Shown here in pieces: positions 2,775 through 62,629 of a stretch of DNA of 64,000 bases. The DNA lies in IMG/VR virus record IMGVR_UViG_3300043411_000910, positions 1 to 64,000 of that record; one strand, 5' to 3'. The notes under the pieces are model-generated. The model saw nothing but the letters and a program-made list of their open reading frames with translations. It was not told the DNA's origin and did not search any database. Source of the DNA: a virus. How positions within the stretch are numbered: the first letter of the stretch is position 1; every line of letters begins with the position of its first letter. The position numbers and the translations under genes are program-made.

Positions 2775-2911
2775 ATGCACGAGTTACAAGTAATTAAAAT
2801 ATTTTTCAAAATATAGGAATATCAAGTTATTGTTTTTAAGTGTGCTGGAAAAGTGCATGTAAAACAAGTAAGTGTCAGGTAACTGGCGAAACAATAACTA
2901 AGGAATTCCAG

Positions 2912-3126
2912 ATGAATATGTTTAACTCAAAAGGGCAACTAAACGCCTCAGATTTCAAAGATACTCTAGCAAATCTAGTGAAGTACGCTTCATTACTAGA
3001 CAATGAGCCTTCAAATCTAGCTCTAGCCCCTTCAATGCAAGATGACAAGAAAGATGAACTAGTTGCTCGTGCAATAATGACCCAAGAAGGCAAAATTTCA
3101 CTAGCTCAAGCAATGGCAAATCCCAT
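2912..3126 (+). CDS. Major capsid protein, exon 1
   Basis: This is the N-terminal 71 residues plus two bases of codon 72 of the HK97-type major capsid protein. ATG 2912 is preceded by AAGGA at 2900-2904. An in-frame GTG at 2840 would add 24 Cys/Lys-rich residues and has no ribosome site, so I reject it. The exon ends at the U of a U-G pair in intron helix P1. Without splicing, translation stops at TAA 3134-3136 after a few intron codons. Joined to 4318-5104 it gives a continuous 333-residue protein, with an Ile codon rebuilt across the junction. The N-terminal part is Asn/Asp/Ala-rich and helical. Confidence 0.85.
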
Positions 3127-4317
3127 TAACCTCTAATTCGAGTGGGATTAAAATTTGGCTATATGCTGGAAACTCTAAAAGCTTTATCACTTTAACACCC
3201 TATAGATTAATCAAAATAGATAATCTCACAAATAGTTAAAGTAACAGAATAAAGATGATATAGACAATCAGCAGGGAAGACTGGAATGAAAAATAATCTT
3301 GAAATACTTAAAATGTACGAATCTGGTCTCTCAATAAGAGAGATAGCATTAGATAACGAATGTAGTTACGAGAAAATAAGAAAAATACTTAAAGAACAAA
3401 AAGTTAAGTGGCATCGTAATTATATAGTTGATCTAAGTGCAGAACAAATCGAAAAAATAGTAAATCAATTCTCAAAAGAAAATAAATCTATAAAAGAAAT
3501 AGCAAAATGGTTTGAAATATCACCAGGCGCTATATCAAATCTTCTAAAATCAAAAGGATTTAAGATAGAGTCAAATAGAAAATACGATATCTTGAGAGAA
3601 GTACCAATAAATAAAATACAAAAAGAATTTATAGTAGGTACTGTACTAGGTGATGGTTGTTTATATAGAGATTCAGCAAAAAGTAACTTCAAATTATCTT
3701 TTGGGCACTGTGAAGAACAAAAAGAATATTTAGAATGGAAAATAACTCAAATGAGTCCTTTTATAAATGGTTATACAAAATCAATTGATAAAAGAGGTAA
3801 TTCAGTTATGTATCAGGCTAGAACAATAAATCATAAAGATTTGAATATGTTCGCAAATATGTTTTACGATGAAAAAAGAATAAAACATGTTCCTGATAAT
3901 CTAGATATGTACTTCACACCATTAAGTTTAGCTATACTAATAATGGACGATGGCAATTTAAATGCTGGAGTTAATATGAGAATAGCAACAATGGGATTCA
4001 CAAAAGAAGAAAATGAAAAGATACAAGATTATTTAAAAAGATGTTTCGATATAAACTCTAAAGTAATGGAGTTTAACTATAAAACAAAAAAATATTACCA
4101 AATAACTTTGAATAAGAAAAATACTCAAAAGTTATCAGATATAGTTAGACCACATATAATAGAATGTATGAAATATAAAATCATGCCAGAACCCTCAACG
4201 ACTACATGCCAAATATCACAAGAAAGTAAATGTGATAATGATATAGTCTGACCCGTATAGAAATATATGGAACTAAACAGAAATGATTTAGTCGATCTAA
4301 TCAATCGTAACAAACTG
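3127..4317 (+). mobile_element. Group I intron in the major capsid gene
   Basis: The 1,191-nt intron shows recognisable core elements. P1 pairs the exon end (3119-3126, AATCCCAT) with the guide (3142-3149, GTGGGATT), leaving U3126 opposite G3142. The P element ATGCTGGAAA (3163-3172) pairs with Q AATCAGCAGG (3266-3275) to form P4. The R element CCTCAACGACTACATGCC ends at 4210, and S contains GATATAGTCTGA (4240-4251). GACTA (4200-4204) and TAGTC (4244-4248) form P7, and ATCACA (4215-4220) with TGTGAT (4231-4236) forms P8. Terminal G is 4317. The 3' exon start TCGAA pairs with TTCGA (3137-3141) just upstream of the guide as P10. These pairings together fix both splice sites. Confidence 0.88.
3286..4251 (+). 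CDS. Intron-encoded LAGLIDADG homing endonuclease
   Basis: This encodes 321 residues inside the capsid-gene intron. Residues 1-100 contain two helix-turn-helix-like segments (around 15-40 and 65-92), suited to DNA target recognition. LAGLIDADG motifs lie at about 115-125 (Val-Leu-Gly-Asp-Gly, catalytic Asp near 123) and about 214-225 (Ile-Met-Asp-Asp-Gly). The length and two motifs fit a monomeric LAGLIDADG enzyme that cleaves the intronless allele to drive intron homing. The ORF begins immediately after the Q element, whose AGGGAA could double as its ribosome site. It runs through R, P8 and S, ending with TGA in S, so its last 20 or so codons also encode the ribozyme core. A maturase role is possible but not visible. 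Confidence 0.9.
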   Translation: MKNNLEILKMYESGLSIREIALDNECSYEKIRKILKEQKVKWHRNYIVDLSAEQIEKIVNQFSKENKSIKEIAKWFEISPGAISNLLKSKGFKIESNRKYDILREVPINKIQKEFIVGTVLGDGCLYRDSAKSNFKLSFGHCEEQKEYLEWKITQMSPFINGYTKSIDKRGNSVMYQARTINHKDLNMFANMFYDEKRIKHVPDNLDMYFTPLSLAILIMDDGNLNAGVNMRIATMGFTKEENEKIQDYLKRCFDINSKVMEFNYKTKKYYQITLNKKNTQKLSDIVRPHIIECMKYKIMPEPSTTTCQISQESKCDNDIV

Positions 4318-5104
4318 TCGAAGAAATTTGGATTACCACGGAATTGCTCGTAGGGCTCTATGTATAGACCCACTAGCTCCTGGTGCTCTAGCTACATACG
4401 AAAGAGACATTGATGTTTCAGCAATGATCGTGTCTTCAAACGGTTCAGGTTCAGAATCAAGAGTTTTCGGTGATCGTATCACTGTTCCAGAATTCGAACT
4501 ATACTCAAATCCAACTGTTAGAATTGCTGAAGTCAAAAGACGCAGATTCAACATAATCGAAAGAGCTGTTCAAAAAGCCAGGCAAGAGATAATGGCTCAA
4601 GAAGACGCCGCTGTTTTCTCAGCCTTCAATGCAGCTTCAGATGTTGAAAACACCCTACAAGACGTAACTGATAATGGTCTTCTAAAGAGAGATCTAGTTG
4701 AAATCAAGACCCAAATTGATCGCTGGGATCTAGTTACATCAAAGTTCTTCATGAATATCAATGAATTCTCAGATATTCTAAAGTGGGGAGCTGGTGGTGG
4801 TCAAGGCACAGGTGGTGGTGATTTTGATCCAGTAGCCATGAGAGAAGTAATGCAAACAGGTCTATTTGGATCTATCTTTGCTGCTGACATAATGGTCTCA
4901 AAGATTGTTCCACCAGGCACAGTCTTCGGTTGTGCAGATCCAGAATTCGTAGGTGTTATGCCAATTCGTCAAGACATTGAAGTTATGCCAGCTGACGAAC
5001 CAAAACAACTAAAACTAGGTTGGGTTATCTCAGAAATAATCGGTCTAGCTATCGTAAATCCAAGAGGCGTTGCCGCTGGTAAGAAATCAGTTTCAGCTGG
5101 TTAA
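4318..5104 (+). CDS. Major capsid protein (HK97 fold), exon 2
   Basis: This is the main part of the capsid subunit, about 262 residues. After the splice the protein reads on through Gly-Ile-Ala-Arg-Arg, then Ile-Asp-Pro-Leu-Ala-Pro-Gly-Ala-Leu. It then has Ile-Thr-Val-Pro-Glu-Phe-Glu, an E-loop/spine helix with Arg-Arg-Arg-Phe-Asn and Met-Ala-Gln-Glu-Asp, and the late Val-Pro-Pro-Gly-Thr-Val-Phe and Pro-Ile-Arg-Gln-Asp motifs. It ends with a Trp-Val-Ile-Ser-Glu beta-strand before the C terminus. These are typical of HK97-type capsids of large myoviruses. A strong hairpin terminator follows within 60 nt, as expected for an abundantly made protein. The total of 333 residues is within the usual range. 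Confidence 0.9.
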
Positions 5105-6569: not shown

Positions 6570-6899
6570 TTATTCGAAATAACCTTCTATATTTATATAA
6601 AAGTTTAGAGCCTGTGTAGCTACGCTGTTATTTGTTATGAATCTTAATATTACTTGAGCAAATTCGCCTGGTTGTACACCTATTGGTGATTGTAGTGATA
6701 AGTTAATTATTTCAGTTGATAGTTGACCAATAGGAGCTGATGCTGGCAATGTTTGCACGCCTAGTGGGAATCTTCTTGGGGCTTTAGTTGTAGATGATTC
6801 AGTTGTTGCTAGAGATACAGCAGTATGTCCGAAAGCTAATGCCATTGCCCATGTTGTTGGACCACCAGCACCACCGCTTGATCCAAGAAAGCTAGACAT
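6570..6899 (-). CDS. Small beta-rich virion protein (probable capsid/fibre decoration)
   Basis: This encodes 109 residues on the minus strand. I chose the start at 6899 because its ATG overlaps the TAA of the upstream minus-strand gene by one base. A start four codons earlier (6911) is also possible. The N terminus is Gly/Ser/Ala-rich, and the remainder alternates hydrophobic and polar residues as beta-strands, ending Ile-Asn-Ile-Glu-Gly-Tyr-Phe-Glu. With its partner (6899-7213) it resembles pairs of small jelly-roll-like proteins placed near capsid genes in large phages. That resemblance comes from memory of the family and is not proven here. Confidence 0.65.
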   Translation of the reverse strand: MSSFLGSSGGAGGPTTWAMALAFGHTAVSLATTESSTTKAPRRFPLGVQTLPASAPIGQLSTEIINLSLQSPIGVQPGEFAQVILRFITNNSVATQALNFYINIEGYFE

Positions 6900-7213
6900 T
6901 AATACCCCCAAGCTTCGACGCGGACCGTTATTGGTCCTACGCTTCCAGATGCAACTCTAAACCAAACTTTTCCTATTGTTCTATTATCAAAAACCATACC
7001 CTTTGAGGCGCCACCTGAATCCATGTCTCCATGTAGAGTATTGCCATTAAACGAGTATTCTACAACTCCAGAGTCTTCTAATAAGAACATTACTCCTTGT
7101 GTTAAAAATGGGATTAGGATATCACAATCATGTGTGAATCCAGCTGATGTAACTTCAATTTTTTGGAAGAAGTTGAAATCTCTTCCATTTGTTATTGGTC
7201 CTCTATTTACCAT
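6899..7213 (-). CDS. Small beta-rich virion protein (probable capsid decoration)
   Basis: This encodes 104 residues and is the first gene of a two-gene minus-strand unit. Features include Asn-Phe-Phe-Gln-Lys near residue 14, then Phe-Thr-Gln-Gly-Val-Met-Phe-type and Val-Glu-Tyr-Ser-Phe-Asn-Gly-Asn strands, and a C-terminal Val-Arg-Val-Glu-Ala-Trp-Gly. This Val-Glu-Tyr-Ser-Phe-Asn-Gly-Asn motif occurs in small phage structural proteins I recall as head or fibre components. It is divergent from the patatin-like gene, with only 45 bp of AT-rich DNA between the two start codons, which must hold or border both promoters. Confidence 0.7.
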   Translation of the reverse strand: MVNRGPITNGRDFNFFQKIEVTSAGFTHDCDILIPFLTQGVMFLLEDSGVVEYSFNGNTLHGDMDSGGASKGMVFDNRTIGKVWFRVASGSVGPITVRVEAWGY

Positions 7214-7258
7214 ATTTCTCTTATTAATTCGATTATATTATTTAATGAATATCTAATT

Positions 7259-8113
7259 ATGAGATGTTTAGTTCTTTCTGGTGGTGCAGCAAAAGGGGCT
7301 TTCCAAGTTGGAGCGCTTATACATCTAATAATAAATCTAAAATATTCTTATAAAAATTTCTCTGGAGTTTCTGTTGGAGCATTAAATTCATCATTTTTAG
7401 CTCAATATAATGATTTAGAGCAAGGAATATTTGATTTAAGAAATTTATGGTGTAATATAAGAAAAGAAAATATTTTAAAAAGACATTTTCCATTTGGAAG
7501 ATTACATGGGCTATGGAAAAAAAGTTTATACGATTCAAAACCATTACAAGACTTAATAGATACAAATATAGATATTTATAAAATACAACAATCAAATAAT
7601 AATATAGATATTGGTTCTGTTTGCCTGAACAATGGCAAATATTCAACAGTTAATCAAGATAATAAAAACTTCATAGATCACGTTAAAGCCTCTTGTTCTT
7701 TCCCTGGATTATTTGAGCCAATATCAATAAATGATGAATTATGGTTAGATGGTGGAGTTAAATCCATAACTCCATTGCAGGCTGCAATAAACTCAGGAGC
7801 TTCTGAAATAGATGTAATACTTACATCACCAGAATCTAACAATGTATGCTTTAACAAAGGTAACTCAATAGATATTTTAAAAAGATCAATTGATCTGATG
7901 ATAGATTCTATAATAGAATCAGACATAAGAAAAGCTCAATTATACAATAAGATACTAGAGCATGAGTCTATACAGGATAAGCGTAAAGTAAATATAAATA
8001 TAATAAGACCAAATAAAGTTTTACTTAATGATTCTTTTGATTTTTCGATAGAGAAAACAAAGAATTTAATAGATATCGGCTATAATTCAGCTAGAGAGTT
8101 ATGCCAAAATTGA
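7259..8113 (+). CDS. Patatin-like phospholipase
   Basis: This encodes 284 residues from ATG 7259. A reading frame extending upstream to 7163 runs antisense through the neighbouring gene and is rejected. All patatin hallmarks are present: the oxyanion-hole loop Gly-Gly-Ala-Ala-Lys-Gly (residues 8-13), the nucleophile elbow Gly-Val-Ser-Val-Gly (Ser38), and the dyad aspartate in Asp-Gly-Gly (Asp164). The enzyme is expected to hydrolyse acyl ester bonds of membrane phospholipids. No signal peptide is visible, so it would act in the cytoplasm or be carried in the virion. Possible roles are lysis, inner-membrane disruption at entry, or remodelling of infected-cell membranes. It overlaps the next gene by 13 bp. 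Confidence 0.88.
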   Translation: MRCLVLSGGAAKGAFQVGALIHLIINLKYSYKNFSGVSVGALNSSFLAQYNDLEQGIFDLRNLWCNIRKENILKRHFPFGRLHGLWKKSLYDSKPLQDLIDTNIDIYKIQQSNNNIDIGSVCLNNGKYSTVNQDNKNFIDHVKASCSFPGLFEPISINDELWLDGGVKSITPLQAAINSGASEIDVILTSPESNNVCFNKGNSIDILKRSIDLMIDSIIESDIRKAQLYNKILEHESIQDKRKVNINIIRPNKVLLNDSFDFSIEKTKNLIDIGYNSARELCQN

Positions 8114-8412
8114 TAAAAGAATATTGTGAAATATGTAAAGTTAAAGATACGGCTACATTACATCTTCATCATATAATAGAGAGAACGGATATTAATTCTA
8201 CAAATCATAATTCTAACTTAGCAATAATTTGTGCAAATTGTCATGCCAAAGTTCATAATAATGAAATTACTATAATTGGAATAGCTCCAGCAACAATAAA
8301 ACCAAATTCAAGAATTTTGATATATGAAATAAATGGAATAAAAAATATAGATATAGAGCCATTGAGGGTTTTTAAAAAAACATCATTCAAATTAGGTGGA
8401 AATGGAAGTTAA
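8101..8412 (+). CDS. Small HNH endonuclease-like protein
   Basis: This encodes 103 residues with an HNH/zinc-finger core. Cys9-x2-Cys12 and Cys44-x2-Cys47 form the zinc site, with His23-His24 as the first H, Asn39 as the N and His48 in the last helix, followed by His52. This is the compact HNH layout seen in phage nucleases, including those that help terminase. There is no accessory homing domain, and it sits within a tight gene string (overlapping the patatin-like gene), so a resident nuclease is more likely than a selfish homing gene. The last 45 residues form a beta-rich tail. Confidence 0.75.
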   Translation: MPKLIKEYCEICKVKDTATLHLHHIIERTDINSTNHNSNLAIICANCHAKVHNNEITIIGIAPATIKPNSRILIYEINGIKNIDIEPLRVFKKTSFKLGGNGS

Positions 8413-8668
8413 AGTAAAATCAGAAGAAGAATCCAGAAAAAATTTGCTAGCTAATGCTAGGAGAATGGGTTGTTATCATGAAATTGTTGCTATACTTAAT
8501 AAGTATGACAAGTTAATGAAGACATGCTCAAATAAAGAAGAACGAGCGAGTATATCTGCTCTAGGCTGTCACGAAATAAATAATCTTCTGGGTGCAGTCG
8601 AAGAAATAAGTGTTTTAGGTTTAGCAGAAGATTTAGTTAAAAATGGAAAGTTTAAAGTACAAGGATAA
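8402..8668 (+). CDS. Small helical protein of unknown function
   Basis: This encodes 88 residues from ATG 8402, overlapping the HNH gene by 11 bp; GTG 8396 in the same frame is an alternative start. The product is charged and predicted helical, with three Cys residues and a Gly-Cys-His-Glu-Ile segment but no recognisable domain. It lies directly before the cold-shock-domain gene, one base separating its TAA from that gene's ATG. Confidence 0.6.
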   Translation: MEVKVKSEEESRKNLLANARRMGCYHEIVAILNKYDKLMKTCSNKEERASISALGCHEINNLLGAVEEISVLGLAEDLVKNGKFKVQG

Positions 8669-8669
8669 A

Positions 8670-8891
8670 ATGAAAGTAGAAGGAAGAGTTATATTTTTTG
8701 ATGCAAAACGTGGTTATGGTTTCATTTCATGGGTTTTAAATGGTGTTCAACAAAAAGATATGTTTTGCCATTACTCAGACATAAACGTAGATGGCTTTAA
8801 AGTTCTTAAGAAAGAACAACTAGTTGAGTTTGAAGTTGGTCAAAATGTAAGAGGAGAGCCAAAAGCAGTGAATGTAAATCTTATTTCTTGA
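8670..8891 (+). CDS. Cold-shock-domain (CspA-like) nucleic-acid-binding protein
   Basis: This encodes 73 residues. ATG 8670 is preceded by AAGGA (8661-8665); an in-frame ATG at 8643 lies within the previous gene and is less likely. The chain starts Gly-Arg-Val-Ile-Phe-Phe-Asp. It has the RNP1-like Arg-Gly-Tyr-Gly-Phe-Ile-Ser and RNP2-like Met-Phe-Cys-His-Tyr-Ser-Asp, and a final strand with Val-Glu-Phe-Glu-Val and Pro-Lys-Ala-Val-Asn-Val. The fold binds single-stranded RNA or DNA and could act as an RNA chaperone, relevant in a genome with an intron and regulatory hairpins. Its 3' end overlaps the convergent gene at 8881 by 11 bp. Confidence 0.88.
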   Translation: MKVEGRVIFFDAKRGYGFISWVLNGVQQKDMFCHYSDINVDGFKVLKKEQLVEFEVGQNVRGEPKAVNVNLIS

Positions 8892-10670: not shown

Positions 10671-10744
10671 GAAACCAGCATTAATTTACATATATTTTTT
10701 AAAATAGTAGTCGCCTGTTGTTATAGTATATGTTAGGGATATGT

Positions 10745-12217
10745 ATGAGAAAATATATATGTAACGAAAATTTTTTTGATGAATTAAATGAAAAATCCGC
10801 CTATTGGGTTGGTTTTATAGCAGGTGATGGTTGTGTAAGAAAACATAATTATTCTTATGTTTTAAAAATTGCTTTGGCTACTAAAGATATCTCACATTTA
10901 GAAGCTTTTAAAAAAGATATAGAATTCACTGGTCCAGTGAATTCTTATACTATTATTAATAAAGATAAAAGTAAAACTTTAAAGAAAGATAAGTATTTTT
11001 CATCTCAAGTTTCAATAACATCAAAACATATTTTTAATAAATTAGGTGACTACAATGTAGTTCCAAATAAGACCTATATCTACAGTGTTCCAGATATTAT
11101 AAAAAATAGTAAATATGTAAACCATTTTGTTAGGGGGTGTATAGATTCTGATGGTTGGATTATTAAGCACAAAAATAATGGATCTTTAGTAACAACAAAT
11201 ATAAGAGTTGGTTTTTGCGGCACTGAGAATTTTGTTAAAGATGTTTTTAACATAATAAAAAATAATTTATCAATATCTGGTGGTGATTTAATAAAAAGAG
11301 ATGATATAAATTGGAATTTCCAATTCGAAAAGAAAGAAGATGTACACAAAATAATTGAATGGATTTATGAAGATGCTACTGTTTTTTTACAAAGAAAAAA
11401 AGACAATGCTGATATGGCTTCCGAATTTTATAAAAATATTTTAAAATATGACAATTTTTTACTTAGTGAAGAAGAATTGAAATCAGATTATGATGTTTTA
11501 AAAAGCATTAAAGAAATTTCTAAAAAATATAATAGAAGTAAGAGAATAGTTAGCAAGCGTATGCGAGAACTTGGTTTGGATTATAAAAACAAAGATAAGC
11601 CTAAAAATGTATATAATGATTTTTTTGATTTTGACTCCGAAAAAAAATTTTATTGGGTAGGATTTTTGGCTGGCAAATCTTCTATTATAAATAGAGGCGG
11701 TAAAATAAATTTAGCAATAAATACTAATGATAAATCTATAATAGATAAGTTTACTCAAGATTCTGGTATGAGTATTAATGTTTGCCAAATGGAGAGTAAA
11801 AGTAAAATAAATTACCAAGGGTCTATTTTTGATGATGATATAATAAAAAAATTGAGCGAATTTAATATTACCGCAGACAAAGATGTTAATTATAAGATAC
11901 CTGAAAAATTATTAAATAATGAACAGCTTAGGCATTTATTGAGGGGATATTTTGATGCTAGAAGTTCTCTACAAATAAATGAAAAAATAATTTTTACAGT
12001 AAAAAACAATAAATGTTTTATAAACCAGATAAATGATATCTTTAATTCAAATGGTATATTAATAACTGCAAAGATCAAGGAATATGAATATAATAAAAGT
12101 CATGAAATACGATATATAGGATCTCAAGCTAAAAATATATTAAATTACCTCTATAAAGACGCTACCATTTATTTAGATAGAAAATATGATAAAATAAAAC
12201 ATTTGCTTGATAAATAA
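10745..12217 (+). CDS. Free-standing LAGLIDADG homing endonuclease with four motif copies
   Basis: This encodes 490 residues. AGGGA at 10734-10738 places the start at ATG 10745 rather than the in-frame ATG 10730. The protein has two tandem LAGLIDADG units. The first is intact: Gly-Phe-Ile-Ala-Gly-Asp-Gly (Asp near 28) and Gly-Cys-Ile-Asp-Ser-Asp-Gly (about 132-140). The second is degraded: Gly-Phe-Leu-Ala-Gly-Lys-Ser (about 305-311, Asp replaced by Lys) and Gly-Tyr-Phe-Asp-Ala-Arg-Ser (about 400-406). A helix-turn-helix-like linker (about 255-285) separates them. I find no group I core in the flanks, so it is a stand-alone homing gene placed between two virion-region genes. Confidence 0.85.
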   Translation: MRKYICNENFFDELNEKSAYWVGFIAGDGCVRKHNYSYVLKIALATKDISHLEAFKKDIEFTGPVNSYTIINKDKSKTLKKDKYFSSQVSITSKHIFNKLGDYNVVPNKTYIYSVPDIIKNSKYVNHFVRGCIDSDGWIIKHKNNGSLVTTNIRVGFCGTENFVKDVFNIIKNNLSISGGDLIKRDDINWNFQFEKKEDVHKIIEWIYEDATVFLQRKKDNADMASEFYKNILKYDNFLLSEEELKSDYDVLKSIKEISKKYNRSKRIVSKRMRELGLDYKNKDKPKNVYNDFFDFDSEKKFYWVGFLAGKSSIINRGGKINLAINTNDKSIIDKFTQDSGMSINVCQMESKSKINYQGSIFDDDIIKKLSEFNITADKDVNYKIPEKLLNNEQLRHLLRGYFDARSSLQINEKIIFTVKNNKCFINQINDIFNSNGILITAKIKEYEYNKSHEIRYIGSQAKNILNYLYKDATIYLDRKYDKIKHLLDK

Positions 12218-22749: not shown

Positions 22750-25506
22750 ATGGCAAATATTCCAGGTTTAACAAATACTATACCTAGCGTTGTATCAGAT
22801 GTTACAACACAATCACGAGGTGTTTCACTACAAGGTGGCGCTCGCGTATTAGCTTTGATTGGTGAGGGAAGCACAACAGAAACTCTGGTTTCTACTGCCG
22901 TAGGTGGAGGTAAAGATGGATTAAATTCTTCTTATACTTCAACCACTGGTTCTGATGGTAGACACTTTAGAGCCTCTGCTTTTCCTCTAACAGAAAATAG
23001 AACAGTTGTTAGGAAAAATGGTGTAACCTTAACAGGTTATGAAGGAACCATTGATTCGAATTCATTTTCAAGTAAATATGATTATAGGTTTGATCCAGCA
23101 ACCGGAAAACTAGAGCTTCAAAAAGCTTATATAGTTGATCAAGGTGGATCTACATATGTTCCTCTAACAACAAACGTTGGTATTGGTACAATAAACAGTC
23201 TAACTCTACTAGATCTAAATGCACCAAATGAAACATGGACAATTAGATGTATATCAGTCCAAAGAAACAATCTAAATGAACCTTTAGATCAAGTTGCTAA
23301 ATTCATAGCAATTGGCTCTGTTTCAGGGGCAAAACTTGATTCAAATGGTAATCCAATAATTTGGGTTGCTAATAATCAAGTAGTAAATAACTCAATATTG
23401 AGATTCTCAATACAAGAAACACAATCAAGCGGATCTTCAGAGTCTCCATTTAGAGAGGGTGATGCATTTACAATAAAAGTTGCCAGCGGTGTTCTAAGCA
23501 CAGATGATTCATTATCTCTAACATACATTGCTACAACAACAATAAATGATCCACAGGCAATGCAAGGTATGAATGATGTTATCAAAAAGCATGGTATCCC
23601 AAGCTTAGATAACAATCTTTCTCTAGGCGCCCAATTAGCTTTCGGTGCAGGAGCTTCTACTGTAATATGTGTTCAAGCAGCACCATCAATGCCAAGAAGA
23701 GTTTCTTATTCACTTATTGATGCAATAAACTCAACATCAACAAATGATGAAGAATTTATATTTGCTCTACCAGAAACAGTGACTCCAAATGCAGATTCAG
23801 ATATTCATTTCTTTGTAACAAATAATACAACTAATGAAGAAACACAACAACTACCAAACAAAATTGAATTTTATACTGTTGGTGAATCAGGCGGACCAAC
23901 ACTAACTGATTTTATCAATGATACAACACCACAACCATCAGGTTATTCATACTGTTATTCAGTAATAGAAAGAATAGCCTCTGTATCAACTGGTGCCGAT
24001 GGTTATCTAGCAAGAGATCCTTCTTTCACAACAAAAGGTATATTTAGCTCAGCTGAAGAATTTGACTCAACATATGTAAGCAAAACTTTAAGACTAATTG
24101 ATGCTACTAATGTTGCAAATATAGGTGAGTTTACTGTAACAGCAGTTAATGATGGAAAACTATATGTAACCGCGACTAGCTTCTCAGAGTTTGTAAATGA
24201 ATCCTCAGTAACATTCTCTTTGGTTGATTCATTAACAGATTTATCATTAGCTGATGATACTGATGGTACTCTAGTTAAGATAGCATCAACAGATAAAGCT
24301 ACATTTACTTCTACAGCAGTAGATTTTAGTGTGTTCAATGATATTATTGGTAAAAAACTAAGAATATCATCATCAGATGATAACAATGGTTTATACGATA
24401 TCTTAAGCTATGACTCAGGAACAAATACACTAACAATCAAAAAAGCTTTTGTTTCAGAATCAGGGTTAAGATATGAAGTTCTAGATTCAGCTAACACAAG
24501 TAAATATGTAGTTGTAAACAGAGACGTTGTTCCAAATGGTTATGCTTTAAGAGTAACACTAATAGATGAAAAGGATGCCGCATTCTTCGACGCTGGTTGG
24601 TTGTCAGCTCTAGAATCGCTAGAAACAGTTGAATGTGATATTTTATCTGTTCTACCAAAACAAACAAAATCATCTATATTCCAAAATGCTTTAAATCATT
24701 GTAAGCTAATGAGTAATATAAGAAATAAGAAAGAAAGAGTATTATTCATGGGAGCTATCCAAGGATTAACCCCAGATAATTTGACTGGTACTGAAGATGC
24801 CGCTGTAGAAGACATTGGAGTGCTGGAAGGTATCCAAGGTGATTCAGTCACAGAAGTGCTTGCAGCCAATGTTGAAGATTTAGCTAACTATTCTGTAGCT
24901 GATGCCTTCGGATCAACCTATAGAAATGTTTATCTTTACCCTGACGAGGTTGTTGTTAATGTAAATGGCACTAATACTTTAGTTGATGGATTCTATATGG
25001 CTCCAGCGGCAGCAGGATATGTAAGTGCTGACCCAAAGATTGAAAATCCACTAACAAATAAAGTAATTCCTGGGTTTACAATTCTAAGAAACAAAACATA
25101 TAACCTAACAACACTAGAGGCTTTAGCACAAGCTGGTGTTACAACTCTTCAACCTGTAAGTGGTGGTGGTAGAGTAATATGGGGCAAAACAACAACTCAA
25201 TCTGGTTTCCCAGAAGAAGAAGAAATCAGCATAGTATTCATAAGAGATAGAGTTGCTAAGATAATGAGGGCGGCTTTCCAAGGATTCATTGGTACTCCAG
25301 AAAGCTCAGATCAAAAAGCTGTATTGACAAGCAGAGCTGTTCAAATATTAAATGCACTTGTGTCTCAGAAATTAATAACTGCATACACAGATCCAGTTGT
25401 TGAGAGAGATGGTACAGACCCAAGACAATTTAATATCTCTTTTAATATCCAGCCAACGTATCCAACCAATTGGATTTTTTTGAAAATAAATGTCGGTCAA
25501 CTATAA
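22750..25506 (+). CDS. Tail sheath protein
   Basis: This encodes 918 residues. The N-terminal Ile-Pro-Gly-Leu-Thr and Arg-Gly-Val-Ser-Leu-Gln segments are as in sheath proteins. The conserved C-terminal sheath domain runs from about 780 to 918: Ile-Val-Phe-Ile-Arg-Asp-Arg, Phe-Ile-Gly-Thr-Pro, Val-Glu-Arg-Asp-Gly-Thr-Asp-Pro-Arg, and a final Phe-Asn-Ile-Gln-Pro-Thr-Tyr-Pro strand ending Lys-Ile-Asn-Val-Gly. The protein is longer than the T4 sheath (659), so the middle (about 350-600) holds inserted surface domains. A 104-bp gap upstream probably carries its promoter, though I see no convincing boxes. A strong terminator follows. The sheath contracts to drive the tube through the host envelope. 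Confidence 0.9.
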   Translation: MANIPGLTNTIPSVVSDVTTQSRGVSLQGGARVLALIGEGSTTETLVSTAVGGGKDGLNSSYTSTTGSDGRHFRASAFPLTENRTVVRKNGVTLTGYEGTIDSNSFSSKYDYRFDPATGKLELQKAYIVDQGGSTYVPLTTNVGIGTINSLTLLDLNAPNETWTIRCISVQRNNLNEPLDQVAKFIAIGSVSGAKLDSNGNPIIWVANNQVVNNSILRFSIQETQSSGSSESPFREGDAFTIKVASGVLSTDDSLSLTYIATTTINDPQAMQGMNDVIKKHGIPSLDNNLSLGAQLAFGAGASTVICVQAAPSMPRRVSYSLIDAINSTSTNDEEFIFALPETVTPNADSDIHFFVTNNTTNEETQQLPNKIEFYTVGESGGPTLTDFINDTTPQPSGYSYCYSVIERIASVSTGADGYLARDPSFTTKGIFSSAEEFDSTYVSKTLRLIDATNVANIGEFTVTAVNDGKLYVTATSFSEFVNESSVTFSLVDSLTDLSLADDTDGTLVKIASTDKATFTSTAVDFSVFNDIIGKKLRISSSDDNNGLYDILSYDSGTNTLTIKKAFVSESGLRYEVLDSANTSKYVVVNRDVVPNGYALRVTLIDEKDAAFFDAGWLSALESLETVECDILSVLPKQTKSSIFQNALNHCKLMSNIRNKKERVLFMGAIQGLTPDNLTGTEDAAVEDIGVLEGIQGDSVTEVLAANVEDLANYSVADAFGSTYRNVYLYPDEVVVNVNGTNTLVDGFYMAPAAAGYVSADPKIENPLTNKVIPGFTILRNKTYNLTTLEALAQAGVTTLQPVSGGGRVIWGKTTTQSGFPEEEEISIVFIRDRVAKIMRAAFQGFIGTPESSDQKAVLTSRAVQILNALVSQKLITAYTDPVVERDGTDPRQFNISFNIQPTYPTNWIFLKINVGQL

Positions 25507-25517
25507 AAGTATTGAAT

Positions 25518-25558
25518 AAAAAAGTGTGTTGTTATGAAGGCAACACACTTTTTTATTT
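25518..25558 (+). terminator. Intrinsic terminator after the tail sheath gene
   Basis: A 14-bp perfect stem (25518-25531 with 25541-25554), a 9-nt loop and continuing T-rich DNA. The A-run on the left and T-run on the right suggest activity in both directions. The loop contains the ATG (25534) of the next gene. Confidence 0.85.
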
Positions 25559-26370
25559 TCAATGAAGAATATTATTTTTATAACTTCAAAAGCATACAGA
25601 ATGAAGATATATGCAAAAATATAATAAGTTATAGTAATACAACAAGCAATAAAATTATCCACATATCTAAAGCTTTAGGGATAAGCAAAAATACTGTTAA
25701 AACTTTCTTTAAATTAAATAGCCAAGATAAAAACGCTTTAATGCAAAGTATAACTAAAAAATCGTGTGCTATATGCAAGCAAATTAAAGATAAAAATAAT
25801 TTTTCTAAAACTAAAAAAATTACTAAATGGGGTGAGCCAATTTATAATTGTTATTGTAATATATGTCAAATAGAATATACAAAAACAAGTGGTTTAGAGT
25901 ATAGGAAAAATAATAAAGAAAAAATAATTGAAAGGTGGAATAAGTATAAGAAAAACAATAAAGAGGCTGTTAAAATTGTACATAAAAAATATGTATTACG
26001 TAAAACAAATATAGATCCTTATTTTAAGTTCAAAAGAAATTTTTCTTTAAGAATGACTAATATTTTTAAAATAAAAGATAAAGATATGATTTATAGTTTA
26101 TTCGGGTATTCTTTAGATAACCTAAAGATTCATTTGGAATCTAAATTTGAATCATGGATGAATTGGTCTAATTGGGGTAAATATAATATTTCTAGTTGGG
26201 ATGATAATGATAGCACAACATGGAAATGGAATATAGACCATATAATACCACAAAGCTCATTAAAATATAAAACAATCAATGATGAAAATTTTAAAAAATG
26301 TTGGGCACTTGATAATTTAAGACCACTATCTGCAAAAGAAAATTTGATAAAATCAAATAAGATTATATAA
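25534..26370 (+). CDS. Free-standing HNH homing endonuclease
   Basis: This encodes up to 278 residues. A helix-turn-helix-like segment at about 43-60 precedes two Cys pairs (about 77-80 and 107-111) that could bind zinc. The HNH core is near the C terminus: Trp-Asn-Ile-Asp-His-Ile-Ile-Pro-Gln-Ser (about 232-241), then Cys-Trp-Ala-Leu-Asp-Asn-Leu-Arg-Pro-Leu and a final Glu-Asn-x2-Lys-Ser. This is the form found in phage homing HNH genes. The only upstream in-frame ATG lies in the loop of the sheath terminator without a ribosome site, so the start is uncertain; a later start near Met70 would lose the helix-turn-helix. It separates the sheath and tube genes, which are usually adjacent, as expected for a recent insertion. 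Confidence 0.82.
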   Translation: MKATHFFIFNEEYYFYNFKSIQNEDICKNIISYSNTTSNKIIHISKALGISKNTVKTFFKLNSQDKNALMQSITKKSCAICKQIKDKNNFSKTKKITKWGEPIYNCYCNICQIEYTKTSGLEYRKNNKEKIIERWNKYKKNNKEAVKIVHKKYVLRKTNIDPYFKFKRNFSLRMTNIFKIKDKDMIYSLFGYSLDNLKIHLESKFESWMNWSNWGKYNISSWDDNDSTTWKWNIDHIIPQSSLKYKTINDENFKKCWALDNLRPLSAKENLIKSNKII

Positions 26371-57260: not shown

Positions 57261-58379
57261 ATGAAAGTTTTATGGAAAGGCTACTTAGGTGGACTACATA
57301 GTTGGTCACAAGTAGCCCAAAATTTATCTAGAGAGTTTATCAGATCTAATTATGAGATTGACTTGTTTTCAACAAATGGTATTAAACACTTCCCAGATGA
57401 TCTTAAAAGTAACTTAATTGCTTATGTAGAAGATAATAAGGTTTTATCTAAAGAATTGGAAAACAATAAAACTTATGATGTTCAGTGCAGTTATACTGCA
57501 ATGAGTAATTTTAAAAATTATTTCTCTAAAGGTGATCAGAATAGATTAGGTATATGGTGTTATGAATTTTCTGGTAAGAATGCATTACCAACTGGATTTG
57601 CAAAAAATCATTTATTTGTTGATTATATACTTCCTCCATCTGTACATGCTAAACAAGTTTTTATAGATTCTGGTATACCAGAAAGAAAAGTAAAAATAGT
57701 TCCTCATGGTTATGGCGAAGAATTTATAAATAGAACCAATAAGTTAAACATAACCAAAGATCAATTTGTAATAGGTGTAAATATAGCTCAACCACATCTT
57801 AGAAAGAATATTAGTGGTATTATAGAGTCTTATTTCAAAGCTTTTACAAAAAAAGATGATGTTGTTATGTTATTTAAAGTATCAAAATCAACTACCAATA
57901 AATTTGATGTTGATTTTGACGCAGTTTTAAATTCATATAAAGCGAAATATAAAAATCATCCTAAGATAATTGTATTGTCTGATTATATAGAATATATTTC
58001 TGACTTTTATAGAGAGTGCGATTGTATATTATCTTTATCCCATGCCGAGTCGTTTTTGTTCCCAGCATTAGAAGCTTTAGTATCTAAAAAAATACTTATT
58101 TGCAGTGGATATGGTGGTCAATTAGATTTTTGTAATAAAAACAATTCCTTCCAAGTTCCTGGCAAATTGATTAGAGCTAACCCAAATATGTTATATTGGG
58201 AACAAAAACCAAATACTATTGTATTTGAACCAGATGTATCTTCAGCTGTTGATTTGTTGAGATTAGCATATTTAAACAAAGATAAGATTAGTAAAGATTT
58301 TGATCAGGAGTATAACAAAATAATATCAGAGTACACATGGAATAATGCCTTTAAGAAAATGGAAACTTTAATAAAATGA
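57261..58379 (+). CDS. Glycosyltransferase, family 4 (GT-B) type
   Basis: This encodes 372 residues. The N-terminal Gly-Gly-Leu-His-Ser-Trp loop, Pro-His-Gly-Tyr-Gly-Glu-Glu-Phe near residue 150, and the C-terminal Ser-His-Ala-Glu-Ser-Phe-Leu-Phe-Pro-Ala-Leu-Glu-Ala-Leu (the Glu-x7-Glu signature, about 262-275) identify a GT-B fold retaining transferase of the GT4 group. It would move a sugar from a nucleotide donor to an unknown acceptor. It heads a cassette with two more transferases and an epimerase, directly after virion genes, so virion proteins or cell-surface polymers are possible acceptors. The next gene overlaps its stop. Confidence 0.85.
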   Translation: MKVLWKGYLGGLHSWSQVAQNLSREFIRSNYEIDLFSTNGIKHFPDDLKSNLIAYVEDNKVLSKELENNKTYDVQCSYTAMSNFKNYFSKGDQNRLGIWCYEFSGKNALPTGFAKNHLFVDYILPPSVHAKQVFIDSGIPERKVKIVPHGYGEEFINRTNKLNITKDQFVIGVNIAQPHLRKNISGIIESYFKAFTKKDDVVMLFKVSKSTTNKFDVDFDAVLNSYKAKYKNHPKIIVLSDYIEYISDFYRECDCILSLSHAESFLFPALEALVSKKILICSGYGGQLDFCNKNNSFQVPGKLIRANPNMLYWEQKPNTIVFEPDVSSAVDLLRLAYLNKDKISKDFDQEYNKIISEYTWNNAFKKMETLIK

Positions 58380-59071
58380 TAATGTCTATAGTCATACCTT
58401 GTTTTAATAATTGGAATTTTACAAAAGCCTGTTTAGATGATCTTAGCTATCTTCCAAATGATCATGAGCTAATTGTTGTTGATAATGGAAGTACAGATGA
58501 CACAAGAAAAAATTTAGAGAAAAGCAGCGCTGTTAATAAATATATAAGATTAGATAAAAACATGGGGTTTGGTTACGCTGTTAACACAGGATTTTCCAAA
58601 GCTTCTGGTAAAAACTTAATGACTCTTAATAATGATATAAGAGTTAAGTTTAATAAAGACTCTTGGACAAAATCGATAATAGAAGAATGTGGGGGTAATT
58701 TAATTTCACCTAACCTTGGGATACTTAATAAGGATTTTTCTTTTAGTAAAGAAATAGATTATTTTGTTGATAGTAAATATTCTTATTTAAGTGGTTGGTG
58801 TTTAAGTTCATCTAGAGACAATTGGGATAAATTAAAATTATCGGATAATGGAACTCATCAAGAATATTTTGATGAGAGGTTTTTTGTATATTTCGAGGAT
58901 ACAGATCTTGGATTTAGGGCTAGACAATTAGGAATTAATTTGAAAGTTTTACAAATACCAGTTGTACATTTTGGGAAACAAAGTTCTAAGAATCTAAATA
59001 CTTATAAACTATATACTGATTCTAAAAAAATATTTGAAGAGAAATGGAGTAATTATGAAAAGTCTATTTAA
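58376..59071 (+). CDS. Glycosyltransferase, family 2 (GT-A) type
   Basis: This encodes 231 residues, the ATG overlapping the preceding stop by four bases (ATG 58382 is an alternative). GT2 marks are Ile-Val-Ile-Pro-Cys-Phe-Asn-Asn at the N terminus, Val-Val-Asp-Asn-Gly-Ser-Thr-Asp-Asp, Leu-Asn-Asn-Asp as the metal-binding DxD equivalent, and Phe-Val-Tyr-Phe-Glu-Asp-Thr-Asp-Leu near residue 180. These resemble rhamnosyl- or galactosyl-type GT2 enzymes. There is no membrane segment. The donor and acceptor are unknown. The 3' end overlaps the DNA-glycosylase-like gene by 17 bp. Confidence 0.85.
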   Translation: MIMSIVIPCFNNWNFTKACLDDLSYLPNDHELIVVDNGSTDDTRKNLEKSSAVNKYIRLDKNMGFGYAVNTGFSKASGKNLMTLNNDIRVKFNKDSWTKSIIEECGGNLISPNLGILNKDFSFSKEIDYFVDSKYSYLSGWCLSSSRDNWDKLKLSDNGTHQEYFDERFFVYFEDTDLGFRARQLGINLKVLQIPVVHFGKQSSKNLNTYKLYTDSKKIFEEKWSNYEKSI

Positions 59072-59915
59072 TTTAACAGAGGGTCCAGAGACAAGAATAA
59101 CTAGTGACCTTGTTAGCAAGGACATTCTTGGGATGTATTTTGATTCATTTACGTTCGCACCAAATTCTAAATTTAGTAAAGGTTTACCAGGGTTTGACTT
59201 AATCAGGTCTAACGAATCACTTGGCAAGTTTAAGGTAACTGAGGTTGATTGTAAGGGCAGGATGTATTACTGGAAGTTACAGAACAAAAGTAAAACTTTC
59301 TATTTCATATCTAAGGCTAGGATGACTGGTACATGGTCTAGAGTCAAAGCTAGGGATTGGATATGTGAAGTTACATTGACTAACGAGAACGAATCCAAGA
59401 AACTATACTTTAATGATCTTAGACATTATGGTGATTTAGAAGTATTAACACGCTCAGAATTTAAAAAACAATATGATATCTATGGATTTGATCCATTAAT
59501 AGATGATGTTGATAAATATTTTCCATTAGTATGGAAGAAATCAAGAGGCACTAAAAATTGTGTATCAAAGTTTTTATTAGATCATACATCATTCTACGGG
59601 ATAGGCTTATATTTAAGATCAGAAATATTACATTCATTGAAGTACTATCCATATCAAAATGTAAATACTTTTTCTAAAAATCAAATATTAGATCTAATGA
59701 AGACGGCAGTAAAGATTGCAAAAGAATCATATGCAAATAATGGGTGTGTTAAATTAAAGTATAATGAAGAAACATTTGGTGGGGACTATTTGGGTAAGTT
59801 AAAAGTTTTCGGAAAACCTCGAGATATTGACGGCAACAAAGTAATAATTACTATAGGTAAGAATGACAAGCGCTCTATGTTCTGGTGTAGAGATATACAG
59901 GTAAGAAATGAATGA
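59055..59915 (+). CDS. Fpg/Nei-family DNA glycosylase-like protein with an N-terminal extension
   Basis: This encodes 286 residues; GGAG places the start at ATG 59055. The Fpg/Nei signature Glu-Gly-Pro-Glu appears at residues 9-12 instead of 3-6, behind Met-Lys-Ser-Leu-Phe-Asn-Leu-Thr. The beta-hairpin Lys (Cys-Lys-Gly-Arg, about 70) is present. The helix-two-turn-helix is present (Phe-Tyr-Gly-Ile-Gly-Leu-Tyr-Leu-Arg-Ser-Glu-Ile-Leu, about 175-190). The C-terminal finger has the Arg (Lys-Arg-Ser-Met-Phe-Trp-Cys) but only one Cys, so it is a zincless finger as in some viral and eukaryotic relatives. Family members excise oxidised bases using an N-terminal amine, which here would need processing. 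Confidence 0.8.
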   Translation: MKSLFNLTEGPETRITSDLVSKDILGMYFDSFTFAPNSKFSKGLPGFDLIRSNESLGKFKVTEVDCKGRMYYWKLQNKSKTFYFISKARMTGTWSRVKARDWICEVTLTNENESKKLYFNDLRHYGDLEVLTRSEFKKQYDIYGFDPLIDDVDKYFPLVWKKSRGTKNCVSKFLLDHTSFYGIGLYLRSEILHSLKYYPYQNVNTFSKNQILDLMKTAVKIAKESYANNGCVKLKYNEETFGGDYLGKLKVFGKPRDIDGNKVIITIGKNDKRSMFWCRDIQVRNE

Positions 59916-60861
59916 AATTATAAATAAAATATCTTATGCTTCTAATATAATAATGCTAATTGTAGTTTGTATATTATTTGGATCTACAATTTCTGATTGT
60001 AGAAAAGGTTCTAATAATAAACAAGTCGAAATTCTACAAAAACAATTAGACGCATATACCATGCGCTCATCAAATGAGACAGTAACCAAAGAATATCTTG
60101 ACTCTGTGATTAAAGGATCTAAGATAAATATCTCTAAGCTTGAAGATGATATGAGTTCTTTAAATTCTAAGCTTGATTCAATGAATCAGGTAAAGATAAT
60201 TAGTGTACCACAATATATTAAAGAAGTAAATTCTACCAAGCAAGAGCCTAAACCAGATACACAGCCAATTGAAAAGAAAGATGATCAATATATGAAGAAC
60301 AAACAGATATTAGATTTATACGAGAATTTTGGAATTTCAAAAGTTCCGATAGGTAATACTTCTTTTTCTGCTTGGAAGAATTCTCCTTGGGATTATAATA
60401 TCTATGGAAGAAATTATACAATAACAAATGTAATAACGAAAACCGATGAAGACAAAACTATTGTTTATAATAAGTTTAATATTGAGGTGGAAGGAAAGAC
60501 TTATGAAGTCCCTATAACTAGCTCAAAAACAATACAAACAAATCCTAAGTCATCATTTAAACTATACCCAAAGTTATTTCTAGAATATTCTTCAGGAATT
60601 TCTTCTGATAGAAATTTGAATAATGCTGTTGGTTTAATGATTTCTCCTATACAATATGGTCAAAGTAAATTTAATCCTAAATTTGTTTTTGCGTCTATTG
60701 GCGCTGGATATTCTAATAATGGGTTGAATATTATATTTTCTCCAGTTATGTATAAAATTGATGTTGTTGATTTTATTAAAAATGTTTATATAGGACCAAT
60801 TACAAGTATTAATATGTCTAAAGTATTTACTGTTGGTTTATCATTAGGAGTATCTTTTTAA
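59908..60861 (+). CDS. Inner-membrane-anchored protein with coiled coil and barrel-like C terminus (spanin-like candidate)
   Basis: This encodes 317 residues. A hydrophobic segment at about 12-28 is a signal-anchor. Residues about 36-95 form a heptad-rich coiled coil, followed by a Pro/Lys-rich linker to about 130. The last 180 residues are beta-rich, and the end alternates hydrophobic residues to finish in Gly-Val-Ser-Phe, like the terminal aromatic signature used for outer-membrane barrel insertion. Such a layout could bridge the inner and outer membranes, as spanins do, or display a beta domain in the periplasm. No known spanin motif or lipobox is present. It overlaps its two neighbours slightly. 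Confidence 0.6.
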   Translation: MNEIINKISYASNIIMLIVVCILFGSTISDCRKGSNNKQVEILQKQLDAYTMRSSNETVTKEYLDSVIKGSKINISKLEDDMSSLNSKLDSMNQVKIISVPQYIKEVNSTKQEPKPDTQPIEKKDDQYMKNKQILDLYENFGISKVPIGNTSFSAWKNSPWDYNIYGRNYTITNVITKTDEDKTIVYNKFNIEVEGKTYEVPITSSKTIQTNPKSSFKLYPKLFLEYSSGISSDRNLNNAVGLMISPIQYGQSKFNPKFVFASIGAGYSNNGLNIIFSPVMYKIDVVDFIKNVYIGPITSINMSKVFTVGLSLGVSF

Positions 60862-61685
60862 TGTTACACGTTCTAACTCTTAACTGGAATGGCAAAGCTA
60901 GAATTTCAGACTTAAATAAATCTATGGCTAACCTTGATATGCCAGAATACATTTGGCATATCAAAGACAATGGATCTATAGATGGTTCCATAGACGAAAT
61001 AAACTCATGGGGAAATAAAAATATAAACATAATAAAAACTGGTCATAACAATGATACATTTGCTTATGGAACAAATATATGTTTTAATACAGCTTCTCCA
61101 AAAGACAATGACTATGTACTATTACTAAACAATGACATAATCTTTAATAAGAAAGATGATATCAAAAATATGATTAATATATTAGACCAAGGTGTTGGGA
61201 TAGTTGGTGCAAAGCTAATGTATAAAAATACGAATACTATACAACACAATGGAGTTGTATTTGATAAGAAGTATTCTTTACCAGTACATTATGGTGTTAA
61301 TATGCAGGATAGTTTAGATATGTCTAAATCAAGAGAGTTTCAAGCTGTTACTGGTGCGGTAATGATGATGAAAGCAGAAACTTTTAGAAATATACATAAT
61401 ACAAATAAATCAAAGAATAAAGGATTGGATGAAGATTTCATTTGGTGCTACGAGGATATAGCCGCTTGTATATCTGTTAAATATCATTTGGGCAAGAAAA
61501 TAGTTTGTTATTCTGGGTCAAATATATCCCATGAAGAGAGTGCTTCATTGAAAATTAATCCAATAAACAGATTATTCTTAGGAAAGAATATTCAAACAAT
61601 GCATTTGAAATACAAGCATCTCTATAAAATAGATAGAGAATTATATGATAATGTAAATTACAATTTATTTAAGGAAGTTAGATGA
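60861..61685 (+). CDS. Glycosyltransferase, family 2 (rhamnosyltransferase-like)
   Basis: This encodes 274 residues, the ATG overlapping the preceding TAA by one base. Motifs are Leu-Thr-Leu-Asn-Trp-Asn-Gly at the N terminus, Lys-Asp-Asn-Gly-Ser-Ile-Asp-Gly, Leu-Leu-Asn-Asn-Asp-Ile-Ile (DxD equivalent, about 92-98), Thr-Gly-Ala-Val-Met-Met-Met-Lys, and Trp-Cys-Tyr-Glu-Asp-Ile near residue 196. This arrangement is that of WbbL/rhamnosyltransferase-type GT2 enzymes. It works with the neighbouring transferases and epimerase. Donor and acceptor cannot be deduced. Confidence 0.85.
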   Translation: MLHVLTLNWNGKARISDLNKSMANLDMPEYIWHIKDNGSIDGSIDEINSWGNKNINIIKTGHNNDTFAYGTNICFNTASPKDNDYVLLLNNDIIFNKKDDIKNMINILDQGVGIVGAKLMYKNTNTIQHNGVVFDKKYSLPVHYGVNMQDSLDMSKSREFQAVTGAVMMMKAETFRNIHNTNKSKNKGLDEDFIWCYEDIAACISVKYHLGKKIVCYSGSNISHEESASLKINPINRLFLGKNIQTMHLKYKHLYKIDRELYDNVNYNLFKEVR

Positions 61686-62629
61686 AAATATTAGTAACAG
61701 GATCTTGTGGCTTTATAGCTTCAAACTTTATAAGAAAAGTTATTTTTAATAAACTAGATCATACTATATGTAGTATAGATAAAATACCAGAAATAAATAT
61801 ACTTAACAATATCTATCAAAACAAAAGTCATTCATTTTATATAGGAAATGTTCTAGATACACATCTATTGAATATTATATTTTCTCATGAAAAACCTGAC
61901 GTTGTGATACACTGCGCTGCCGAAACAAATATAATGGATAGCAACATTAGTCTAGCAAAGTATATAGATGATAATGTAAATGGAACACAAAAAATTCTAG
62001 AATCATGTGTTAAGCATGGCGTAAAGAAAATGATATATCTATCTTCAATGGAGGTATATGGGTCTAATAACCCATCAGATCCATCTGTGGAGAAATCTGT
62101 ACTAAATCCCGAGAATTCATATGCTCTTTCAAAAACATTATCAGAACAGATAGTTTCTTATTATGGAAAATATAATAATGTTAATTATAATATAATAAGA
62201 TTGGGATCTGTTATGGGACCAAGAGAATTTGGCAATAAATTTGTTCCTTATTTAATAGACTCTATATTAAAATCAAATAAACCAATTTTAAGTAAGGATG
62301 GCAATAATATAAAAAATTGGCTGCATGTAGCTGATGTTGTAAATGGAATTCTTAATGTGCTAGAGAATGGTACAAATAATGAAATTTATAACTTATGCTC
62401 ATCCAAGGACACGACCGATCTTGAAATCTTTCAAACATTGGCTTCAATGTGTAATTTTTCTCAAGAAAATGTAGACTTTGACGGCGAAGATAAAAGGTTT
62501 TATAGAGTATGTACGGGCAGCAACGCTAAAATAAAAAAGATTGGATGGCAGCAAGACATTGATTTAAACAATGGATTGTCAATGACATTTGATTGGTATA
62601 AGAATAATCCATGGTGGTTTAAATCTTAA
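61682..62629 (+). CDS. NAD(P)-dependent sugar epimerase/dehydratase (extended SDR)
   Basis: This encodes 315 residues, with an ATGA overlap to the preceding gene. Residues 5-16 (Val-Thr-Gly-Ser-Cys-Gly-Phe-Ile-Ala-Ser-Asn-Phe) are the Rossmann cofactor loop. His-Cys-Ala-Ala-Glu-Thr (about 79) and Ser-Ser-Met-Glu-Val-Tyr-Gly (about 122-128) are extended-SDR motifs. Tyr-Ala-Leu-Ser-Lys (about 148-152) is the catalytic Tyr-x3-Lys. This class makes activated sugars such as UDP-galactose or dTDP-4-keto-6-deoxyglucose; which one is not determined. It most likely supplies nucleotide sugars to the three transferases upstream. Confidence 0.85.
   Translation: MKILVTGSCGFIASNFIRKVIFNKLDHTICSIDKIPEINILNNIYQNKSHSFYIGNVLDTHLLNIIFSHEKPDVVIHCAAETNIMDSNISLAKYIDDNVNGTQKILESCVKHGVKKMIYLSSMEVYGSNNPSDPSVEKSVLNPENSYALSKTLSEQIVSYYGKYNNVNYNIIRLGSVMGPREFGNKFVPYLIDSILKSNKPILSKDGNNIKNWLHVADVVNGILNVLENGTNNEIYNLCSSKDTTDLEIFQTLASMCNFSQENVDFDGEDKRFYRVCTGSNAKIKKIGWQQDIDLNNGLSMTFDWYKNNPWWFKS

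Follow-up and report, generated by a model that had tools for sequence, protein, structure and literature searches.

How does a phage make its major capsid protein when the gene is broken by a 1,191-nt insert that carries a reading frame of its own? The question arises at positions 2912 to 5104 of the window, by which we mean the whole 64-kb stretch of DNA that was analysed, the first part of an IMG/VR phage record of 88,474 bases. The record is a linear contig and is probably incomplete. Contractile-tail and baseplate genes are present in the window, and the phage is a large one related to Bacillus phage G. The window also holds a patatin-like phospholipase gene amid the structural genes (7163-8113; PF01734, E=4.6e-29) and a sugar-related cluster (57261-62629) with two family 2 glycosyltransferases, a weak match to group 1 glycosyltransferases, and a protein of the nucleotide-sugar epimerase/dehydratase type; a tRNA search of the window returned none. 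The locus itself is a phage-G-type major capsid gene split by a group I intron. An earlier note had proposed this from the bases, and homologous introns together with intronless homologues now bear it out. The parts are as follows.

2912..3126, plus strand: exon 1 of the major capsid gene, 71 codons plus AT of codon 72; the tblastn/phrog_2522 match continues into exon 2
3127..4317, plus strand: group I intron, 1191 nt
3286..4251, plus strand: HTH and LAGLIDADG homing endonuclease ORF, 321 aa; PF03161 (LAGLIDADG_2) E=2.5e-33, with HTH domains
4318..5104, plus strand: exon 2 of the major capsid gene, with its stop codon; phrog_2522 E=4.8e-63

Joining 3126 to 4318 gave a continuous, stop-free protein of 333 aa, as had been predicted. 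On the profile of phrog_2522, a major head family, exon 1 covers positions 9-69 and exon 2 covers positions 73-317. The joined protein was 47.9% identical over residues 41-324 to gp27 of Bacillus phage G (JN638751), a member of the same family whose gene is uninterrupted in phage G, and it matched the solved gp27 chain (PDB 6wkk) over residues 42-324 with E=1.2e-85. Its best 80 homologues, all on viral contigs and many on records of 150-480 kb, were uninterrupted without exception, 72-78% identical, and collinear with it from end to end. This full-length homology places the joined protein among the phrog_2522 or phage-G-type capsid proteins. The intron has a G+C content of 28%, versus 41% in the exons. 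Because unspliced exon 1 meets a TAA 10 nt into the intron, and no second intact copy of the capsid gene was found in the 88-kb record, it can soundly be inferred that capsid synthesis would depend on splicing.

Homologous introns were found in the capsid genes of 15 contigs beyond the window, 10 of them at exactly the window's site. A protein search with the endonuclease yielded four contigs, in each of which the intron interrupts the capsid gene; a DNA pattern that combined capsid codons with the P3/P4 motif yielded 11 stretches, seven of them new contigs; and an endonuclease alignment search added four more (L097, L101, L102, and L103). These relatives allowed the ends of the intron to be placed by comparison, using the following elements.

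3119..3126, plus strand: exon strand of P1, its last base the U of a U-G pair
3137..3141, plus strand: guide strand of P10, UUCGA, pairing with 4318-4322; it co-varies with exon 2 in L086, L087, and L095
3142..3149, plus strand: guide strand of P1, the internal guide sequence GUGGGAUU, pairing with 3119-3126
4317, plus strand: terminal G of the intron, a G in 12 of 12 introns tabulated

The note had described an exon-guide pairing of 8 bp with U-G at the junction and a 5-bp P10, and both stood. P1 is AAUCCCAU/GUGGGAUU, with U3126-G3142 as its junction pair, and P10 joins UCGAA at the start of the 3' exon to UUCGA. T3127 equals T4318, so that splicing of 3126 to 4318 and of 3127 to 4319 would leave an identical sequence; the former is preferred because of the group I rules for the U-G pair and the terminal G. 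All 12 tabulated introns have U-G at the junction with a P1 of 6-8 bp. P10 measured 5-7 bp in eight of them and was weaker, 2-3 bp, in L083, L085, and L088. Across the relatives, both pairings vary in step with the exons.

P4, P7, and P8, named in the note, were all recovered, along with P3, P5, P6 (from RNAalifold), P6a, P9, P9.1, and P9.2. The percentages below refer to cells of an alignment of eight diverse introns of the family, on which covariation was computed.

3154..3159, plus strand: 5' strand of P3, UUUGGC, pairing with 4208-4213; 97.9% paired, two pairs with double changes
3164..3169, plus strand: 5' strand of P4, pairing with 3268-3273; invariant and 100% paired
3174..3264, plus strand: P5 and its branched extension, three covarying helices
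3281..3284, plus strand: 5' strand of P6a, CUGG, closed across the ORF by CCAG at 4186-4189; 97.5% paired
4200..4204, plus strand: 5' strand of P7, GACUA, pairing with UAGUC at 4244-4248; 97.5% paired, one pair with double changes
4208..4213, plus strand: 3' strand of P3, with covariation
4214..4237, plus strand: P8 hairpin; 81% paired, double changes in 6/6 pairs
4253..4270, plus strand: P9 hairpin; 100% paired, double changes in 5/7 pairs
4272..4292, plus strand: P9.1 hairpin; 100% paired, double changes in 6/6 pairs
4293..4307, plus strand: P9.2 hairpin; 100% paired, double changes in 4/4 pairs

The conserved group I core, P3-P4-P6-P7-P8 with the P3/P7 pseudoknot, is thus present, and every helix except the invariant P4 has compensatory changes in relatives. 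Overall, 95.1% of cells were paired and 45 of 72 pairs had double changes, a level reached by none of 500 shuffles; slid registers paired 31-41%. P5 is extended, and no P7.1/P7.2 hairpin was evident between P3 and P8. An insert with an endonuclease in a conserved gene is typical of inteins too, and one might also think of translational bypass or an assembly artefact. However, the insert has its own frame, with in-frame stops right after exon 1, its RNA helices covary, and it recurs in contigs from many different metagenomes. The stops and the covariation led us to reject the intein and bypass readings, and the probability left to this whole set of alternatives to an intron is close to negligible.

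The note had named a covariance search with Rfam RF00028 as a check. In that search the stretch 2800-4600 scored 42.7 bits (E=4.3e-9), short of the 50 bits needed at the gathering score, and a scan of the whole 64-kb window with Rfam gave no group I match at the gathering score and none at E<1. The long ORF is most likely what depresses the score, because ORF-less introns of 288 nt at the same site in three contigs scored 75-76 bits (one of them 75.9), above the gathering score. A 3'-core model trained on six relatives, with the window left out, matched 4182-4316 at 114.9 bits (E=1.4e-25), the runner-up reaching 14.7 bits. A second model, R1, which includes the window intron, found one copy in the window's whole record, at the capsid gene. 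Relatives' records of 394, 361, and 219 kb each gave a single copy, and a 301-kb record gave three; in all five whole records searched, the family was confined to the capsid gene, in it or at it. None of the 80 intronless capsid loci held a copy of the intron core by R1.

The family is spread over at least six sites across the contigs, four of them inside 16 nt, with at most three introns per capsid gene. In the list below, numbering follows the window capsid gene and a slash marks the insertion point. Sites other than A and B were placed by eye on sequence and model matches, without a full P1/P10 table.

Codon 72, AT/T (nt 215), site A: window, L083, L086, L087, L088, L091, L093, L095, L096, and, on the basis of P1 sequence, L097 and L101
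Between codons 73 and 74 (nt 219), site B: L082, L084, L085
Between codons 69 and 70 (nt 207): L103
Codon 68, AT/G (nt 203): first intron of L097
Codon 91, T/TA (nt 271): L102, and second or third introns of L091, L095, L096, and L097
About codon 245: third intron of L096

Three group I introns share one capsid gene in L096 (1979-4871) and in L097 (1996-3822); the codon-68 intron of L097 is about 270 nt, without a long ORF, and lies 12 nt ahead of the codon-72 intron. In L085, the capsid gene is closely followed by a separate ORF of 88 aa (6891-7157) that repeats the C-terminus of the capsid protein, with 52.6% identity to residues 273-328, and is perhaps the remnant of a duplicated capsid gene. 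In L084, a 701-aa ORF (6645-8750) has an HTH/LAGLIDADG-like start and a distinct end domain resembling a DNA methylase, with an SPPY motif; it is a possible intein or fusion.

Sites A and B lie 4 nt apart, and the guide starts at the same intron position at both. Its core, GGAUU, pairs with AAUCC, which is followed by CAU before the splice site at A and by GU at B. Among the 80 intronless homologues, and counting G-U pairs, a complete P1 was possible in 70 for site B and in eight for site A; the remaining 72 allowed seven of the eight site A pairs. This pairing potential indicates that the target generally allows both registers. P10 tracks the exon, being UUCGA/UCGAA in the window, UUACGA/UCGUAA in L086, and UUUCG/CGAAA in L082. 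In the endonuclease tree, site A and site B introns are intermixed, and neither group was rejected as a single clade (p-AU 0.092 and 0.168). We tentatively suggest, with somewhat less than even confidence, that one intron lineage may be specialised on one essential gene, the phage-G-type capsid gene, and may re-target locally by means of a two-register guide, the sites at codons 68, 69/70, and 91 being further moves. Two small changes in the guide, from GUGGGAUU to GCGGAUU, would shift the splice site by 4 nt, and P10 would be refitted to the new exon. The principle of local re-targeting is not new, because in rDNA, related group I introns and their endonuclease genes are already on record as moving to sites nearby (PMC1299323).

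The endonuclease ORF begins inside the P6a loop, a position revealed by its natural deletion in relatives, and both acidic LAGLIDADG motifs, FIVGTVLGDG and SLAILIMDDG, are intact. Its 3' end overlaps P6a, P7, P3, and P8, so those bases serve as both RNA structure and code; in L085, the frame ends earlier and the RNA helices are kept. Values of dN of about 0.2-0.3 with saturated dS against relatives indicate that the enzyme is under purifying selection. In bacterial and archaeal genomes, a search turned up no more than distant relatives of the endonuclease, 25-42% identical over parts of the protein. Gain, replacement, and loss of the enzyme gene are the usual picture for homing introns. Here, L083 and L088 have near-identical ribozymes and differ in their enzymes (320 aa with an HTH versus about 210 aa without), and the introns of L091, L095, and L096 lack the ORF (288 nt). 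Presence, absence, ORF loss, and ORF replacement are patterns that would be expected of a mobile intron.

Two other frames in the window resemble nuclease genes. A second LAGLIDADG ORF (10730-12217, 495 aa; LAGLIDADG_3 E=9.4e-10, phrog_4645 E=1.4e-68) sits between genes for proteins of 302 and 175 aa; the family model R1 found no group I match there, and the ORF is therefore probably free-standing. A 278-aa ORF at 25534-26370, lying after the tail sheath gene (22750-25506) and before the structural gene that comes next, has two CxxC pairs and HIIPQSSL and DNLRPLS segments and resembles a free-standing HNH nuclease; Pfam gave no match to it at E<0.001.

We are highly confident in the reading that the capsid transcript holds a group I ribozyme, that it would be spliced to encode the 333-aa protein, and that the intron would spread by homing. 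A guanosine would attack after U3126, which P1 holds, and the freed exon end would attack after G4317, aligned by P10; ligation would complete codon 72 (AT plus T) and restore the capsid protein. When relatives co-infect, the LAGLIDADG enzyme would be predicted to cleave their intronless capsid alleles within the conserved MANPIRRNLDY segment, and repair of the cut allele would copy the intron in. One could instead suppose that the intron is dead for splicing or the gene is decaying, the capsid protein coming from another gene or from exon 2 alone, which has an internal TTG start at 4328; on a linear contig of 88 kb, another capsid copy could lie outside. That is very improbable: no core helix is broken, each exon is an open frame collinear with the homologues, the enzyme ORF is whole and keeps its two motifs, and the record holds no second capsid copy. 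Exon 2 alone would, moreover, lack the first 71 residues, which intronless relatives conserve.

The note is fair in remarking on the scarcity of known capsid-gene introns, yet such introns are not without precedent: they are already known from phages, and one case is proven (PMC3706429; PMC7886860). In mycobacteriophage LittleE (Cluster J), splicing of a major capsid gene intron was demonstrated by RT-PCR and N-terminal protein sequencing (PMC3706429). Like the window, LittleE has a mobile-type intron with an endonuclease ORF inside the major capsid gene, a U before the intron, and a G at its end, the class being stated only as "most likely a group I" (PMC3706429). Unlike the window, it has an unrelated capsid family and host, and its endonuclease, LAGLIDADG-like in the section text and HNH in the figure legend, lies on the opposite strand (PMC3706429). 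Tuc2009 is cited there as a further capsid-gene case (PMC3706429). For Delta and Zeta crAss-like phages, the available part of the report describes group I introns in the MCP gene, with four intervening segments and five MCP fragments; several introns per gene are seen in capsid genes here as well, whereas those phages belong to another order and capsid family, and their introns were described from endonuclease domains (PMC7886860). Jug gut phages, large like the window's phage, have many group I introns, and metatranscriptomes support splicing for 37 of their 76 predicted introns; the genes named as interrupted in the available part of that report are terL, nrdD, and DNA polymerase, not MCP (PMC12363816). 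The jumbo-phage intron nuclease gp210 of PhiPA3 cuts the intronless allele of a co-infecting relative; it is an HNH enzyme in an RNA polymerase gene, a functional parallel only (PMC11620839). What is less expected in the present family is that it occupies, among the relatives, several closely spaced positions in one gene.

Ordinary Rfam scanning can overlook phage introns that carry ORFs, and capsid genes of this kind may therefore end up annotated in two pieces. Since each virion takes hundreds of capsid protein copies or more, splicing here must be efficient, and a cut in the capsid gene of a co-infecting relative would hit virion production. The siblings form a natural series within one gene: the ORF may be full-length, replaced, or absent, the intron may be missing altogether, and neighbouring sites come with guides to match. 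This series opens local re-targeting of a group I intron to direct testing.
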